Shown here in pieces: positions 17,395 to 36,687 of a stretch of DNA of 38,263 bases. Numbering within the stretch: the first letter of the stretch is position 1; every line of letters starts with the position of its first letter. The position numbers and the translations under genes are program-made. The notes under the pieces were generated by a model. The model was not told the DNA's origin, made no database searches, and saw only the letters and a program-made list of their open reading frames with translations. Source of the stretch: an uncultured Gammaproteobacteria bacterium (GTDB taxonomy: Bacteria; Pseudomonadota; Gammaproteobacteria; Steroidobacterales; UBA11654); NCBI GenBank assembly GCA_902634075.1, contig CACPJA010000011.1, positions 1 through 38,263 of the forward strand, written 5' to 3'.

Positions 17395-17514
17395 ATGTCT
17401 GATAATTCAAATTCAAATGTCCCAGAGCACATGGTCGCATTGAAGATAATTTCCATTGCTTGTGTGGTCTTGTTTCTGGTAACTCTGGTTGGAATGTATT
17501 TCTCTCACAATTAA
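17395..17514 (+). CDS. 39-residue single-pass membrane peptide, unknown function
   Basis: A short gene with ATG at 17395 and TAA at 17512-17514. AAAAGGAG at 17382-17389, 5 nt before the ATG, is a strong Shine-Dalgarno, better than that of most neighbours. The product begins with a polar segment (MSDNSNSNVPEHM, residues 1-13) followed by one hydrophobic helix of about 21 residues (KIISIACVVLFLVTLVGMYF) and ends SHN. It probably spans the inner membrane with the N-terminus in the cytoplasm or periplasm undetermined. It ends 4 nt before the hisS start. I do not recognise the family. Strong ribosome site, clean stop and position in a packed operon favour a real gene. Confidence 0.72.
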   Translation: MSDNSNSNVPEHMVALKIISIACVVLFLVTLVGMYFSHN

Positions 17515-29460: not shown

Positions 29461-30072
29461 ATGAGAATATGTATAATTTTTGGACATCATAATACGGAGA
29501 ATTCTTTTAATGCCTCAGTCAGAGATACTTTTATCGATGAGGCCAAAAAAAGCGGTCATGAGATTGATCTGATTAATTTATTTGATGAAGACGAGCAACT
29601 TCCTTTTTATAGGAGCGACATTAATCCACCGCCAGAAATAGTTTTGCAATATAGAAAAAGACTAGAAGATGCAGATGCCATGTTTTTGATCGGCGCGTGC
29701 CACAATTTACGAATGAATGTAATTATTGAGAATTGGATTGATTGGGTATTACATCCAAAGTGGTTTTTCTCATACAGGTCTTTATTGCCTGACAGTAAAT
29801 ATTTTGGAAATTATGGATATCCTGTCCCTGGAGCAATGAAAAATAAAATTGGGATTGTCTCAATGTCCTATGGAGGTCCAATGTTAAGTTATTTTAATTT
29901 CTCCTTGTTCGACAATATTCCCTATAGAAGATTAAAAAAGTCAGTATTCCAATTAGGGGGATTAAAAACAAAATACCTAAGGTTTTATTCTGTTTTACCG
30001 ACTATGACTGATGCAGCTTTTGATAAGCATATGAGAAGGGTAAGAAGATTCGCACGAAACTTAAAAAAATAA
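29461..30072 (+). CDS. Flavodoxin-fold NAD(P)H-dependent oxidoreductase (KefF/MdaB-like family)
   Basis: 203 residues. The N-terminus CIIFGHHNTENSFNASVRD matches the FMN phosphate-binding start of Flavodoxin_2-fold quinone reductases, and AMFLIGACHNLRMNVIIENWIDWVL matches the second flavin and substrate block. A GIVSMSYGGP segment follows. Relatives reduce quinones with NADPH or regulate K+ efflux systems, but no partner is seen here, so the substrate stays open. GAGGAA at 29450-29455 supports the ATG. It is followed by the non-coding RNA region. Confidence 0.78.
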   Translation: MRICIIFGHHNTENSFNASVRDTFIDEAKKSGHEIDLINLFDEDEQLPFYRSDINPPPEIVLQYRKRLEDADAMFLIGACHNLRMNVIIENWIDWVLHPKWFFSYRSLLPDSKYFGNYGYPVPGAMKNKIGIVSMSYGGPMLSYFNFSLFDNIPYRRLKKSVFQLGGLKTKYLRFYSVLPTMTDAAFDKHMRRVRRFARNLKK

Positions 30073-30084
30073 TTAAAAAAAAGG

Positions 30085-30112
30085 TTGACAAAATATAGGA
30101 CTTTGCTAAATT
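30085..30112 (+). promoter_or_regulatory. Strong sigma70 promoter for the 30.12-30.26 kb RNA
   Basis: A perfect -35 TTGACA (30085-30090) and a -10 TAAATT (30107-30112, 4 of 6) are 16 bp apart. This predicts transcription starting near 30118-30120. It is the clearest promoter in the window and lies 12 nt after the flavodoxin-fold gene, in a run of A residues that could act as an UP-type element. Confidence 0.7.
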
Positions 30113-30117
30113 AATTC

Positions 30118-30258
30118 TTGCAAACGAAGTATGGAAATGGAGGTGGCAACACCAAAAGGGAAATCCAAAGATTGAAGTAGGCAGAAGGGAAGGAAAACAG
30201 ACTAACCGACAGACCGACTGCCCGCGAAAAACCCAGGGACTTAACAGTCCCTTTTTTT
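30118..30258 (+). ncRNA. Structured non-coding RNA, either a stand-alone sRNA or a terminating leader
   Basis: About 140 nt between the promoter and terminator, with no protein gene of normal size. Visible structure: a GGTG-GCAA-CACC hairpin with a GNRA loop (30142-30153); a long-range pairing GGCAG (30180-30184) with CTGCC (30218-30222); a purine-rich loop with GGGAAGGA; repeated ACAGAC and CCGAC elements near 30198-30218; and a 3' terminator. Six GGA motifs occur, which could be CsrA/RsmA sites. GACTG (30216-30220) could also pair with CAGTC (30245-30249) and break the terminator. A 14-codon frame at 30131-30175 could be a leader peptide. It matches no RNA family I recognise. Confidence 0.62.
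30236..30258 (+). terminator. Intrinsic terminator of the non-coding RNA
   Basis: A 6-bp perfect stem GGGACT/AGTCCC with loop TAAC, followed directly by seven T residues (30252-30258). It ends 29 nt before the next gene's ATG at 30288, so it could stop a free sRNA or control read-through into that gene. Confidence 0.88.
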
Positions 30259-30287
30259 ATGCTTGAATACAGCGACCTAATAATACG

Positions 30288-31460
30288 ATGAAAAATAAGT
30301 ATGAAATAGTTCTCTATGGAGCGACGGGCTTCACCGGCCAGCTTTGTGCAAAATATTTGATGGATAACTACCCAGATTTAAATTGGGCAATTGCAGGAAG
30401 AGATAAGAAAAAATTAGAACAGCTTAAATCAGATATAAACTTTTCAGGCGATGTCTTAATTGCAGACGGGCAAGACCTTGAAGATCTGAATGCATTAGCA
30501 GAACAAACAAAAGTGGTTTTATCTACCGCTGGCCCTTTTGCTAGATACGGTTCTCTTTTGGTGCAGGCCTGTGTAGAGCAAGGAGCGCACTACACTGACA
30601 TCACTGGCGAGAATCACTGGGTGCGAGACATGATTGATCAACATCATGAGAAAGCTGCCTCTAAAGGAGTTAGGATTATCCCTTCTTGTGGTTACGATTC
30701 CATTCCTTCTGATATCGGTGCTTATTTTGCAGTTTCCCAATTTGATAAGCCTGTGAGCCGAGTGGATGTTTATCAAGAAGCTGTTGGAACAGCTTCTGGA
30801 GGAACAACAGAAACCATGTTTACCATGGGTGATGTGTCCAAGAAAATGAGAGATCCTTTTATTTTGAATCCCGAGAATACTGTTTCAGATAAACAAAGAA
30901 GACGCTCAAAAGATGGGTTTAAAATTGAAAAGATAGAGGGATTAGAGGGATGGTCTGGTGTGGGAATGATGGCTATAGCTAACACAAGAGTGGTCAGACG
31001 ATCGGCTGCATTGATGGAGCAAAATAAAAAACCCTACGGTAAAGATTTCACCTTTGGTGAATACGGCTTATTCAAAACAAAAAAATTGGCCAAAATTACC
31101 TCTTATGGTTTGATATTTGCAGTTATGATCATTACCTCTCCACTAAGACATTTAGTCAGGCCTTTCTTGTTAAAGCCTGGAGAAGGACCTAGTAAAGAGG
31201 CAAGAGATAAGGGATGGTTCAGGTCAACTTTCATCACACGTGCTGAGGATGGTGAACAAAAGACTTGCTCAATCTATGGATCGGGAGATCCAGGCTATAA
31301 ATCCACCTCAAAATTGGTATGTGAATCGGCTCTAGCTTTAGCTAAATCGGATAATTTACCAGGCGGTGATCAATATGGAGGAGTCCTAACCTCTGCTGTT
31401 GGTCTAGGAAACGAATTAATTTCGAGGCTAAGAAAAGCCGGAATAGAATTTAAGTCTTGA
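30288..31460 (+). CDS. Saccharopine dehydrogenase-like (trans-acting enoyl reductase type) oxidoreductase
   Basis: 390 residues. The N-terminal Rossmann motif YGATGFTGQLCAKYL (10-24) is followed by AIAGRDKKKLEQL, STAGPFARYG, and YTDITGENHWVRDM, then IIPSCGYDSIPSDIG and the SGGTTETM block. This matches saccharopine dehydrogenase-like proteins such as human SCCPDH and mycobacterial trans-acting enoyl reductases, which act in lipid metabolism or have unknown substrates. A hydrophobic stretch near 267-283 (YGLIFAVMIITSPL) may associate with membrane. No clear ribosome site is visible before the ATG, and a terminator lies just upstream. Confidence 0.85.
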   Translation: MKNKYEIVLYGATGFTGQLCAKYLMDNYPDLNWAIAGRDKKKLEQLKSDINFSGDVLIADGQDLEDLNALAEQTKVVLSTAGPFARYGSLLVQACVEQGAHYTDITGENHWVRDMIDQHHEKAASKGVRIIPSCGYDSIPSDIGAYFAVSQFDKPVSRVDVYQEAVGTASGGTTETMFTMGDVSKKMRDPFILNPENTVSDKQRRRSKDGFKIEKIEGLEGWSGVGMMAIANTRVVRRSAALMEQNKKPYGKDFTFGEYGLFKTKKLAKITSYGLIFAVMIITSPLRHLVRPFLLKPGEGPSKEARDKGWFRSTFITRAEDGEQKTCSIYGSGDPGYKSTSKLVCESALALAKSDNLPGGDQYGGVLTSAVGLGNELISRLRKAGIEFKS

Positions 31461-31807: not shown

Positions 31808-34168
31808 ATGAAAAACTATCATATAACGCTTTTTATAATGAGCGTTTTAATTACAAACAATGTAATCGCAGATGAAATAGAAGAAGTAGTAGTTACTTCA
31901 TCTTATATCAACCAGTCGAGCGATGAGATAAAGGATCCATTGCATATTATCACTGAGCAAGAATTGGAGACAAATCCAACTCAAAGCTTGGGTGAATCTA
32001 TTGATAACTTACTTGGTGTCTCATCTTCAGATTATGGCGCAGCTGTTGGTCAACCAATCATTAGGGGTATGTCTGGGAGCAGAGTCAAAGTTCTAAACAA
32101 TGGCTTACTTGTTCGTGATATTTCAGGTTTGGGTGCTGATCATTTAAATGAGGTCGATATGAACAATGTCAAGCAAATTGAGATTGTTAGAGGACCATCA
32201 TCCTTGATGTATTCCAATGGTGCAATTGGAGGCATAGTCAATGTCGTCGATGAGACTATTGCAAAACAAGATTTCAAAGAGCGAGACTTGCGACTTGGTT
32301 TAGAGACGCAGTCTACAAATGATGGTGAAGTTGGTCAATTCAGCTATAAGGATAATTTAGGTGGCTTGAACATTTCATTAGCTTATAAAGATGGCTCTTT
32401 CGATAACTATGATATTCCCATGGGTGCAATTATTCATTCTGAAGAAGAGCATGAAGAAGAGCATGAAGAAGAACACGAGGAAGAACATGATGATGAGGAG
32501 CACGATGAGCATGATGAGGATCTTGATTATCTGGAAAATTCAGATTATGAGTCTGAGACCCTTCGATTAGGTCTTTCAACTGCTGGCGATTGGGGGCATT
32601 TTGGCGCTTCATTCCAAAACAGTGAAAGCTTATATGGAATACCTTTTCATGGAGAAGGCCACGAAGGACATGGCGGTCATGATGAGGATCACGATGAGGA
32701 TCACGATGACGAAGAGCATGATGGGCATGATGAGCATGGGGAAGAAGAAAGAATCTTCTCCACCACTGACTCTGAAACATTCAATATAGAAGGTTCTTAT
32801 GTTCTTAGTAATGGTCCTTTAAATCGTATTAATTATTACTACAGGAACACAGACTATTCATTAACTGAGCAACATGCTGAAGAAGGACACGACGAAGACC
32901 ATGATGAAGAACATGATGAAGACCATGAAGGTGAACATGATGATCATGATGAAGGTCCAACATTATTTTCTAATGATGCCGATGAATTTGGTTTGATCTT
33001 AGATTTTGCACAATACAATTCTTTATCACAGAAATTGGTGTTACAGAATATGAATGAAGATGTCTCCATTCTGGGGGCAGAGGCTTTCATGAATCCAGCA
33101 GAATCTAATGAGAAGATGATTGGCTACTATCTGGGAACGCGTTTTATGGGCTTGGATCTCGATCTAGGTATTCGACATGATCGCATCAATCGCAGAGGCA
33201 CTGTTAGTCATGCGCATGAAGAAGAAGAGCATCATGATGAAGACGAGGAGGATCACGATGAAGAGGAGCATCACGATGAAGAGGAGCATCACGATGAAGA
33301 GGAGGAGTTGGAGTCTTATGATATGGATTACAACGATACCAGTATCGCCCTTTCTCTTGGTTCATCTATTAATGAAAATACCAGCTTTAGCATTGGTCTA
33401 GCTCAAGTCAAAAGAGCGCCATCTGCTGTTGAGCTGTTCATGAATGGAGAGCATTTATCGACTGGGCGCTTTGAAGTTGGTAATACCAATTTGGAAGCCG
33501 AAACATCTAATAATTTGGATTTTAGTCTCAATTATGAAAATAACGGATTCTTTGCCAGTGCGTCAATTTTCAGAAATGATGTTGATGATTACATCTACTT
33601 GCAGGATGAGACTGAAGAAGAGCATGAGATGCATCACGATGAAGATGAAGACCATGATGAAGACCATGAAGGTGAACATGACGATCATGATGACCATGGC
33701 GGCTTAATATTGGCAAATTATCTTCAAAAAGATGCTGAACTTAATGGCTATGAGTTTGAGATTGGTAGATCTGTAGAAATGAACAATGGTTCTATGACAC
33801 TTTCATATGGAATGGATTATGTGAATGCAAAGTTCGAAGATGGAACTTATGTGCCAAGGATCAACCCTAGACGACACATTATTTCTTTGGGTTATGCAAA
33901 AGAAGGAACCAGCGCTTCATTGATTATGAGGAAAGTAACATCACAATCAAAACTTGCATTAAATGAGACACCTACGGAGTCTTACAATATGCTTGACCTT
34001 AAAGTCTCTCAGAGAATCCCTATTTTCTATGGCGAAAGTGAGATGCTTGTTACTGTCTTCGCAAAAAATTTATTGGATGAGGTTGCAAGAAATCATTCAT
34101 CTTTTGTAAAAGATCAGGTGCCTTTACCAGGGCGAAATATTGGCATTAGGTTTAATTTTCAATTTTAG
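31808..34168 (+). CDS. TonB-dependent outer-membrane receptor with five His/Asp/Glu-rich insertions, probable zinc receptor
   Basis: 786 residues. Signal peptide (residues 1-21, ending NNVIA), a TonB box-like IEEVVVTSS, a plug domain (about 35-150, with QPIIRGMSGSRVKVL and EIVRGPSSLMYSNGAIGGIV) and a C-terminal barrel ending in a terminal aromatic (RFNFQF). Five insertions rich in His, Asp and Glu lie near residues 212-240, 281-314, 357-382, 467-501 and 600-631; they fall between barrel strands and are probably extracellular loops. Such loops characterise ZnuD-like zinc receptors, though cobalt, nickel or copper is possible. AGGAGG at 31798-31803 is a strong ribosome site. Import would be powered by a TonB-ExbBD system such as the one at 0-2.3 kb. 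Confidence 0.9.
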   Translation: MKNYHITLFIMSVLITNNVIADEIEEVVVTSSYINQSSDEIKDPLHIITEQELETNPTQSLGESIDNLLGVSSSDYGAAVGQPIIRGMSGSRVKVLNNGLLVRDISGLGADHLNEVDMNNVKQIEIVRGPSSLMYSNGAIGGIVNVVDETIAKQDFKERDLRLGLETQSTNDGEVGQFSYKDNLGGLNISLAYKDGSFDNYDIPMGAIIHSEEEHEEEHEEEHEEEHDDEEHDEHDEDLDYLENSDYESETLRLGLSTAGDWGHFGASFQNSESLYGIPFHGEGHEGHGGHDEDHDEDHDDEEHDGHDEHGEEERIFSTTDSETFNIEGSYVLSNGPLNRINYYYRNTDYSLTEQHAEEGHDEDHDEEHDEDHEGEHDDHDEGPTLFSNDADEFGLILDFAQYNSLSQKLVLQNMNEDVSILGAEAFMNPAESNEKMIGYYLGTRFMGLDLDLGIRHDRINRRGTVSHAHEEEEHHDEDEEDHDEEEHHDEEEHHDEEEELESYDMDYNDTSIALSLGSSINENTSFSIGLAQVKRAPSAVELFMNGEHLSTGRFEVGNTNLEAETSNNLDFSLNYENNGFFASASIFRNDVDDYIYLQDETEEEHEMHHDEDEDHDEDHEGEHDDHDDHGGLILANYLQKDAELNGYEFEIGRSVEMNNGSMTLSYGMDYVNAKFEDGTYVPRINPRRHIISLGYAKEGTSASLIMRKVTSQSKLALNETPTESYNMLDLKVSQRIPIFYGESEMLVTVFAKNLLDEVARNHSSFVKDQVPLPGRNIGIRFNFQF
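32441..32488 (+). repeat. Four tandem 12-bp units coding EEEH in the receptor
   Basis: Four consecutive 12-bp units encode Glu-Glu-Glu-His. Synonymous changes (GAG/GAA, CAT/CAC) show they are not a very recent expansion. They form the first metal-binding insertion and could change copy number by slippage. Confidence 0.7.
33254..33304 (+). repeat. 18-bp tandem repeat (2.8 copies) in the receptor
   Basis: The unit CACGATGAAGAGGAGCAT occurs at 33254-33271 and 33272-33289 and partly at 33290-33304, with no mismatch. It encodes HDEEEH. Exact identity suggests a recent slippage expansion or contraction in the fourth insertion. Confidence 0.85.
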
Positions 34169-34236: not shown

Positions 34237-36687
34237 TTAATTCTGTAAATCTTCAGCAATAGTTTTTAGTGTTGAATCTAACCATATGATTCGATCTCTC
34301 GTGCGTTGATCGATATCCAATTCCTCTGATGGTAAATCAAAACCCTTAATTTGCCTTGCAAGTCTCCTGCTACCACCTTTCTCCATAGCAATCTTAGCTT
34401 TACCAAGTTTATCTATCATATTTTCAGCAGTTTTTTCTTCTATGGCATTATCTCTTATAAGTTGATCAATATAAGCCAATGCAACATCAGGTTTTGCGGG
34501 CCATTTCATCGGAATTTGCTGTTGAGGATTAAACAGCCTTTTTGAACCAATTGCAGGAAAAGCATAATTAGCAGCTTCTATTTCATTTGCAGTAATGTGA
34601 TCACTTGGTGTTAATTTAAGAACATCGAGTCCTCTTTGTATTTCTGTTCCATAAATTGCTCCCTCATAATAATAAACGGACCAAAAGCCACCAGGTATCA
34701 ATTCATCTTCTAAATAAGGACCCCGATCAAAATAAGCAATTTCAATAGGATTAGATGAATCAGTGAAATCAATGACTGAAATACCTCCTTGGTACCATGC
34801 TTGAACAAAGATGTCTCTTCCAGGAATGGGGATAATAGATCCATTATGTGCCACGCAATTTTCACTTTCTTTCTGAGGTGCTGGCATTTTGAAATGACTT
34901 CGAAACTCTAATTTTCCATTTTCTATGTCATAAATCGCATTAGCTCCCCAGTCCAATGGATCCCATGCACGACATCTAGGTCTTCCGCCTCCACCCCATT
35001 CATCAGTAAATAAGATCTTTGTTCCATCATTGTTGAAAGTCGCGGAGTGCCAATAGGCAAATCCAATATCAGTTACAACATCAATTCTTTTTGGCTCAAT
35101 TGGATTTGAGATATCAAAGAGGATTCCATTGCCTGAACAAGCACCAGCTGCAAGCTTTGCAGATGGAAACACAGTAATATCATGACACTGATCAGTGATT
35201 TCAGTCTCTTGTGTTTCATCCCCATGATCTCCACCTCGCCACAATCCAGCAAGTACCCCAGTTTCTGAGTCAGCAAAAACTGTAGGGCTATTAACGATTT
35301 TTGATTGAGATGGATCATTTATAGGAATTTCAATGACATCAATTCTGAATAAAGCAGTTCGATCATCTCCAGGTATATCCTCAAAGCAGTCTTCCATTTC
35401 TTCTTGATCGCGAACGCTTGATGTTCCTGAGTTATAGACAATTATCTTTCCATCTATTGTGGCGCCGTCTACAACAGAATGTGTGTGTGAACCTCGACAT
35501 GTTTGAACTGCACCGACCTGAATAGGCATTAGTGGGTTAGAAATATCAAAAATTCTCAAACCTCTAAATCGCTCTTCACTTGGTTCCGGGCTTACTCCTT
35601 GAAGTCCGCAATCCAGTCGACCTCTAGTGTCTTGAACCGATAGTATTAATAAGTTACCCACTACTGATACATCACCCTGGCCTCCAGGGCAAACCACAGA
35701 AGTAATATGATTTGGTATACCATTTTCCTCTAGACGATAGATATTAAACCCGTGATAACTCCCAGCTATCAGCAGATCATTACTAAAGGCCATATCAGTG
35801 TTATCAAAACTTAGCATCGGCCGTCGCTGATTTGAGGCCAATGATTCTATTGAGCTTTCTTCCTCTTCTTCCTCATCTTTATCTTCTTCGTTACTTAATC
35901 CTTTTTCGAGTCGGTTATCAGGATCAAAGAATCCAACTGGTTTTTTCAATGAGGCAATTAATTCCATATTTGATATTGCTACTCCGGCATCAAATAATCC
36001 CGGCGCTAAATTTGCTCTCGGGTCATCAGAAAGATCGATCAAAATTCCATTCATGCGTTCTATTTCGACACCTTGGTCATTCGTAAGATCAGAAACAAAT
36101 TCATATAATTGAGGGTCATAAGCTGAACCAGGGTATTCATTTAATCTATCAACCATTTCAATGGCTCCCTCATGATGTTTGATCATCAAATTTAAATACA
36201 TTCGATCAAAATCAGTGGAATCTGACTGGTTTAATTGCTGCATTTGCTCCGGGGTCGCCATGCCCATCATTTTATGATGATGCATGTGATTGCTTTTCGA
36301 TGGATCAGGAACTGTTTGACCCATATCTAGCAGCCAATTTTCCATGAAGCTTATTTCATCTTGTTGTGAGATATCTATGCGTCCAGCCAGATCAAGAATG
36401 GTCTGATTATTAGTTCTTGACGTGGCCATCTCAGACATTAGAAAAGCTTGATAATGATGAATAATCATACCTTGCATGAAATCGACATCTGCAGCTGTAT
36501 ACGATGTATTAGCAATAGCAATTGCTGTTTCCGAATCAATTACCTTTGTAGGCTCCCCAGGCGAACCAGGCTGTAAAATAGGGACTTCTGAAACAATTGA
36601 AGTCGGTAGCAGAAGACCAAAAAAGACAATAGAAACTGCGATTACAGAATAAGTTCTAAAAAAAACGTTATAAATAATTTCTAACAA
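34237..36687 (-). CDS. DUF305 plus LVIVD-type beta-propeller exported protein
   Basis: 816 residues, minus strand, TTG start at 36687 supported by AAAGGGGA (36700-36693) six nt upstream. An N-terminal hydrophobic helix (about 15-34) is a signal or anchor. DUF305 covers about 55-220, with paired His motifs FMQGMIIHHYQAF and LMIKHHEGAIEMV and a HMHHHKMMGM stretch near 134; this ferritin-like family is linked to metal or redox functions. An acidic linker (about 268-282) leads to LVIVD-like repeats (GLRIFDISNPLMPIQVG, GILFDISNPIEPKRI, GISVIDFTDSSNPIEIA) forming a propeller to about 690, with a helical tail. Function unknown. It follows lysA on the same strand. Confidence 0.82.
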   Translation of the reverse strand: MLEIIYNVFFRTYSVIAVSIVFFGLLLPTSIVSEVPILQPGSPGEPTKVIDSETAIAIANTSYTAADVDFMQGMIIHHYQAFLMSEMATSRTNNQTILDLAGRIDISQQDEISFMENWLLDMGQTVPDPSKSNHMHHHKMMGMATPEQMQQLNQSDSTDFDRMYLNLMIKHHEGAIEMVDRLNEYPGSAYDPQLYEFVSDLTNDQGVEIERMNGILIDLSDDPRANLAPGLFDAGVAISNMELIASLKKPVGFFDPDNRLEKGLSNEEDKDEEEEEESSIESLASNQRRPMLSFDNTDMAFSNDLLIAGSYHGFNIYRLEENGIPNHITSVVCPGGQGDVSVVGNLLILSVQDTRGRLDCGLQGVSPEPSEERFRGLRIFDISNPLMPIQVGAVQTCRGSHTHSVVDGATIDGKIIVYNSGTSSVRDQEEMEDCFEDIPGDDRTALFRIDVIEIPINDPSQSKIVNSPTVFADSETGVLAGLWRGGDHGDETQETEITDQCHDITVFPSAKLAAGACSGNGILFDISNPIEPKRIDVVTDIGFAYWHSATFNNDGTKILFTDEWGGGGRPRCRAWDPLDWGANAIYDIENGKLEFRSHFKMPAPQKESENCVAHNGSIIPIPGRDIFVQAWYQGGISVIDFTDSSNPIEIAYFDRGPYLEDELIPGGFWSVYYYEGAIYGTEIQRGLDVLKLTPSDHITANEIEAANYAFPAIGSKRLFNPQQQIPMKWPAKPDVALAYIDQLIRDNAIEEKTAENMIDKLGKAKIAMEKGGSRRLARQIKGFDLPSEELDIDQRTRDRIIWLDSTLKTIAEDLQN

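Follow-up and report, generated by a model that had tools for sequence, protein, structure and literature searches.

The stretch analysed here, referred to as the window, comprises 38,263 nucleotides (nt) of contig CACPJA010000011.1 from the 35-contig draft genome of an uncultured gammaproteobacterium. Its coding share is 95.9% using a simple open reading frame (ORF) model, and its largest gap, at 30073-30287, holds a candidate small RNA gene on the plus strand. This consists of a sigma-70-type promoter (30085-30112), a 112-nt RNA body (30120-30231) and an intrinsic terminator (30235-30258), followed by a spacer (30259-30287) and then by a gene on the same strand for a saccharopine-dehydrogenase-like protein (30288-31460; Pfam Sacchrp_dh_NADP). 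From the comparisons described below, the locus very probably contains a real, selected, non-coding RNA gene.

Transcription signals in the largest gap of the window

The gap measures exactly 215 base pairs (bp), as had been claimed in an earlier note made from the letters of this DNA, and contains no ORF of at least 40 amino acids. The promoter pairs TTGACA at 30085-30090 with TAAATT at 30107-30112 across a 16-nt spacer, the arrangement given in that note, and carries a TG before the -10 box. Only one other site between 24 and 36 kilobases likewise reaches 10 of 12 matches, and from the position of the promoter's -10 box transcription would be expected to start at about 30119-30120. Promoter-like sites alone are not enriched in the window (23 seen vs 34.5 expected from shuffled DNA); such a site by itself carries no evidential weight, whereas its combination with a terminator does. 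The only intrinsic terminator in the window by strict definition, AGGGACT-TAAC-AGTCCCT at 30235-30252, has the run of seven Ts that had been described (30252-30258), but as the first of these is also the last base of the stem, the stem has seven pairs and not six. There is a single case in the window of a promoter with a terminator 60-250 nt behind it, and none in 80 dinucleotide-shuffled strands, which bears out the view that the order of promoter, body and terminator is beyond chance. The body between them has a GC content of 47%, compared with 39% for the window, and its purine content of 72% is the highest among all 112-nt stretches of the window.

Tandem triplication in a sister species

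BLAST searches of 59 near relatives and then of 396 genomes of the order yielded a homologue, besides the window's own genome, only in one member of the same genus (G009; BPCL01000007.1, 'Woeseia sp. CM1_200m.P17', a metagenome-assembled genome, as identified when 84,980 species genomes were scanned for the pattern). The RNA locus there is flanked by the same two genes as in the window, and its promoter is identical. Three 112-nt bodies stand head to tail with periods of 112 and 112, and a single promoter and a single terminator, the latter after the third copy, serve all of them. The repeat unit starts at GCAAACG, at most 1 nt from where transcription would be expected to begin, and reaches to directly ahead of the terminator. 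This tandem array is found in G009 only, the window having one copy of the body. Pairwise comparison of the three copies gives 3, 7 and 10 differing bases, so the array is not a simple assembly echo of one copy; the single copy in the window might conceivably represent a collapsed array, given that this genome is a draft. The upstream neighbor of the RNA, a flavodoxin-like gene (29461-30072 in the window; G009:C7:57583-58190), carries two single-base frameshifts in G009, where it is either a pseudogene or affected by assembly errors.

Selection on the unit

At fourfold sites of both flanking genes, 37 of 216 positions differ between the two species (83% identical). The body of the window differs from the three G009 copies by 4, 7 and 9 changes per 112 (96, 94 and 92% identity), which is slower than the fourfold sites with one-sided Fisher p values of 0.00016, 0.004 and 0.016, the three copies not being independent of one another. 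No change has occurred in the stretch from the -35 to the -10 box and one in the 28 bases of the terminator (27/28 identical), while the 29-bp spacer 3' of the terminator shows only 66% identity and is not conserved. Because the unit changes more slowly than both the fourfold sites and this spacer, promoter, body and terminator are, to judge from the two genomes, under purifying selection as one unit.

A protein product of the body is unlikely. As 112 is not a multiple of three, the reading frame shifts in each copy of the array, and most substitutions in the one small ORF shared by the copies change the amino acid (see below).

Predicted structure of the RNA

Hairpin 1 (30138-30167, plus strand) consists of GGTG-GNRA-CACC at 30142-30153, with TGGA/TCCA as a weaker outer helix beneath it. 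Its loop is GCAA in the window, as first reported, and GAAA in all three G009 copies, both of which are GNRA loops. Hairpin 2 (30177-30225, plus strand) is a long-range helix, GGCAGAAGG/CCGACTGCC, which contains the GGCAG (30180-30184) and CTGCC (30218-30222) already noticed as a long-range pair. In copy 3 of G009, two substitutions turn mismatches of its internal loop into A-U and U-A pairs. The purine-rich apical region of hairpin 2 (30188-30206, plus strand) is almost invariant and has a predicted unpaired probability of about 0.85, making it a putative interaction site. The GNRA hairpin and the GGCAG/CTGCC helix appear in the predicted fold of every copy, and 12 of 13 variable columns lie outside predicted pairs, the remaining one keeping a G-U pair (hypergeometric p 0.028).

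Distribution and relation to known RNA families

In total, the RNA is present in two of ten genomes of the genus and in no other genome tested. A search of the 396 genomes of the order with a covariance model of the four bodies (that of the window and the three G009 copies) added no member, and there was no match in IMG/VR, phages, plasmids or E. coli. Matches that did appear elsewhere were attributed to chance. A covariance-model match in G453 (26.7 bits, L048; 369 genomes of the class scanned) sits inside an 86-amino-acid ORF and has a broken long helix, weak BLAST matches in other members of the genus fall within protein genes (e.g. rplX in L007) or are limited to similarity over about 20 nt or less, and a Bacteroidales pattern match (L033) sits in a repeat-coding region. 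In one further genome (G001), the upstream gene is kept at 88% identity and is directly followed by a convergent gene, with the RNA missing. The conservation in relatives that the earlier note proposed as a check is thus present above the neutral rate in the sister species and extends to just these two genomes of the genus; because of this distribution, the RNA appears to be young or fast-evolving and lineage-specific, and not a broad structured class.

A search of the whole window with Rfam 15 at gathering scores returned a tRNA-Leu only, and lowering the threshold to E values up to 10 gave nothing credible in the RNA region, where the best weak match, to STnc50, is on the minus strand and reaches 29.2 of 55 bits, mainly from the terminator hairpin. 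This upholds the suggestion that the RNA lies outside known families. A replacement of 6S RNA (RF00013) was ruled out, with 6S itself found at G000:C6:19790-19970 and in 11 of 11 genomes of the family. Each named family open to testing has a defining feature that the locus lacks, and no papers on small RNAs of this lineage were found in the literature. Two features expected of an intergenic small RNA gene were found: a promoter and an intrinsic terminator that belong to the RNA itself and lie between genes, and conservation above the neutral rate in non-coding sequence. The locus is therefore best read as an undescribed orphan RNA of this known general kind.

RNA-binding proteins of the family

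Profile searches of the 11 family genomes (G000-G010; completeness 64 to 92%) detected CsrA (PF02599), Hfq (PF17209) and ProQ (PF04352) in none of them, with the controls positive in each case (E. coli and B. subtilis for CsrA). As the proteins are missing from all eleven at this completeness, an effect of assembly gaps is unlikely. The family keeps 6S RNA in every genome although all three proteins are missing. With Hfq and ProQ in 0 of 11 genomes, a usual chaperone-dependent small RNA, relying on either protein, is ruled out, and a small RNA here would act without the usual chaperones.

Alternative explanations for the locus

The element might instead be a cis-acting leader or attenuator of the 30288-31460 gene, its terminator being switched by a ligand, a protein or translation; 29 nt separate the end of the T run from the ATG on the same strand, no other promoter is visible in the spacer, and the saccharopine-dehydrogenase-like gene stands 3' of the RNA in both genomes. 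However, the 5' arm of the terminator has no alternative partner, as loss of the terminator costs 9.1 kcal/mol (7.9 in G009) and only four scattered pairs replace it in the predicted fold. In addition, Rfam gave no riboswitch match, the spacer is drifting, and the downstream gene occurs at 52-55% identity in five genomes of the genus that lack the RNA. A leader is therefore considered unlikely, and the three-copy array with one terminator would better fit a trans-acting RNA that depends on dosage or valency. The same downstream gene bears on the proposal that the RNA is the antitoxin of a type III toxin-antitoxin locus. ToxI repeats are short pseudoknots of about 35 nt followed by a ToxN ribonuclease (RNase) gene, whereas the units here are 112 nt and the next gene encodes a saccharopine-dehydrogenase/NADP-binding protein (Pfam Sacchrp_dh_NADP), not a ToxN-like RNase. 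The likeness is superficial; the G009 order of promoter, tandem RNA repeats, terminator and gene fits three of four ToxIN criteria (PMC8860590). With a single copy in the window, a downstream gene found elsewhere without the RNA, and no ToxN/CptN/TenpN-like RNase gene 3' of it, a type III antitoxin was ruled out, and we give it virtually no weight.

Other explanations concern the body itself. A short peptide could be the product, from the ORF MEMEVATPKGKSKD (30131-30175) or another small frame, and this frame of 14 codons is uninterrupted in all four bodies, which share no other small ORF. Yet four of five substitutions within it change the amino acid, it has no good ribosome-binding site, and the 3' half of the body outside the frame is also conserved, all of which makes a peptide very improbable. 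A sponge of the CsrB/RsmZ type, titrating CsrA through GGA motifs, would suit the six GGA motifs in 139 nt and the purine-rich body, and triplication would add sites and thereby increase titration; but the family has no CsrA, so this is refuted for that protein, and the hairpin loop is GNRA and not GGA, leaving such a sponge barely credible. The locus may also be a mutational relic, the promoter and terminator of a lost gene kept only by the closeness of two species, as the presence of the RNA in just two genomes would allow. The RNA, however, changes more slowly than the fourfold sites and the adjoining spacer, and promoter and terminator are intact in G009 while the upstream gene is frameshifted there, and a relic is accordingly improbable. 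As this gene is frameshifted and the RNA is intact, the RNA would not be maintained on behalf of the flavodoxin-like gene, unless both frameshifts are assembly errors.

Proposed mode of action

We slightly favor an independent small RNA gene that would act in trans in a multivalent mode. RNA polymerase would start at about 30119 and stop at 30258, producing an RNA of about 140 nt that is rich in purines and forms two stem-loops; in the sister species, where the body appears to have been duplicated twice within the same unit, one transcript of about 363 nt would carry three bodies. Exposed purine-rich stretches (GGAGG, GGGAAGGAAAACAG) would pair with pyrimidine-rich stretches of target messenger RNAs or, alternatively, would be binding sites for an RNA-binding protein, and additional copies of the body would raise dosage or valency. 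The promoter, the terminator, selection, the lack of coding capacity, the tandem triplication and the missing Hfq, CsrA and ProQ are read from the sequence, whereas transcription, a trans mode, pairing with targets and any cleavage of the three-body transcript into single units are what we infer. A more specific version, in which a chaperone-independent multivalent regulator is built from a purine-rich 112-nt module whose number varies per transcript and works as a concatemeric antisense RNA or a protein sponge, is put forward tentatively and is, in our view, somewhat doubtful.

Several results weigh against an independent, trans-acting small RNA. The spacer showed neither a sigma-70-like promoter nor a clear ribosome-binding site, and as no separate promoter is visible for the downstream gene, a leader role would be allowed. 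The search for 16-nt complements of the apical loop gave no target common to both genomes, and such complements were not in excess over a reversed-pattern control. The sequence basis is two species with few independent changes. The folding of the window RNA has a minimum free energy z of -1.45, with 14 of 200 shuffles folding equally well, and across the copies z is a modest -1.3 to -2.4 relative to shuffles. The covariation that had been suggested as a check did not appear either, as no pair in the four bodies has a compensatory change on both sides. Because of this and the modest folding energies, calling the RNA structured is plausible and no stronger; what stands of the original proposal of a new structured RNA gene is a gene of its own that is Rfam-negative, conserved and non-coding, while strong folding does not.

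Comparison with known systems

Known sibling small RNAs carry separate terminators, and the main examples also have promoters of their own and use Hfq. The unit described here differs in that one promoter and one terminator are found for three bodies and no Hfq was found. Tandem siblings such as PrrF1/PrrF2 (with the read-through RNA PrrH), OmrA/OmrB and AbcR1/AbcR2 are alike in being near-identical small RNAs side by side whose copy number and arrangement vary among close relatives (PMC4211561); adjacent near-identical copies were found here in G009 only, without the promoter and terminator per copy. prrF1 has its own terminator, and PrrH, which spans two siblings, offers the nearest likeness within this group (PMC4211561). 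In Rhodobacter sphaeroides, several similar small RNAs, CcsR1-4, come from one transcript with maturation by RNase E (PMC8625941), and their joint production resembles that predicted for the G009 transcript. Unlike CcsR1-4, the RNA here has its own promoter, purine-rich loops and no protein gene in its unit. Candidate structured RNAs of 'Candidatus Pelagibacter ubique' come from a streamlined marine genome, where they were found as long intergenic regions with a relatively high GC content, and some have few or no relatives outside metagenomes (PMC2704228). The present locus is likewise a long GC-rich intergenic region of a compact marine genome, but it belongs to another lineage and has no match to those RNAs in Rfam.

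Other genes of the window

The second-largest gap of the window (17395-17514) contains a small ORF that had not been listed (MSDNSNSNVPEHMVALKIISIACVVLFLVTLVGMYFSHN); it has a good ribosome-binding site and probably encodes a small membrane protein. At 31808-34168 lies a gene for a TonB-dependent receptor, nearest to the zinc receptor ZnuD, with long loops rich in histidine, aspartate and glutamate that come from 12-24-bp tandem repeats. On the minus strand, 34237-36687 encodes an 816-amino-acid protein with a CopM/DUF305-like metal-binding part and a choice-of-anchor B part.

Significance for the lineage

If transcribed as predicted, the locus would add an RNA gene not described before to the compact genome of an uncultured marine bacterium, and the contrast of one copy with three in sister species would provide a rare snapshot of a small RNA body multiplying within one transcription unit. 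Since the three best-known RNA-regulator proteins of bacteria are missing from the family, such an RNA, if transcribed, would have to work by other means.
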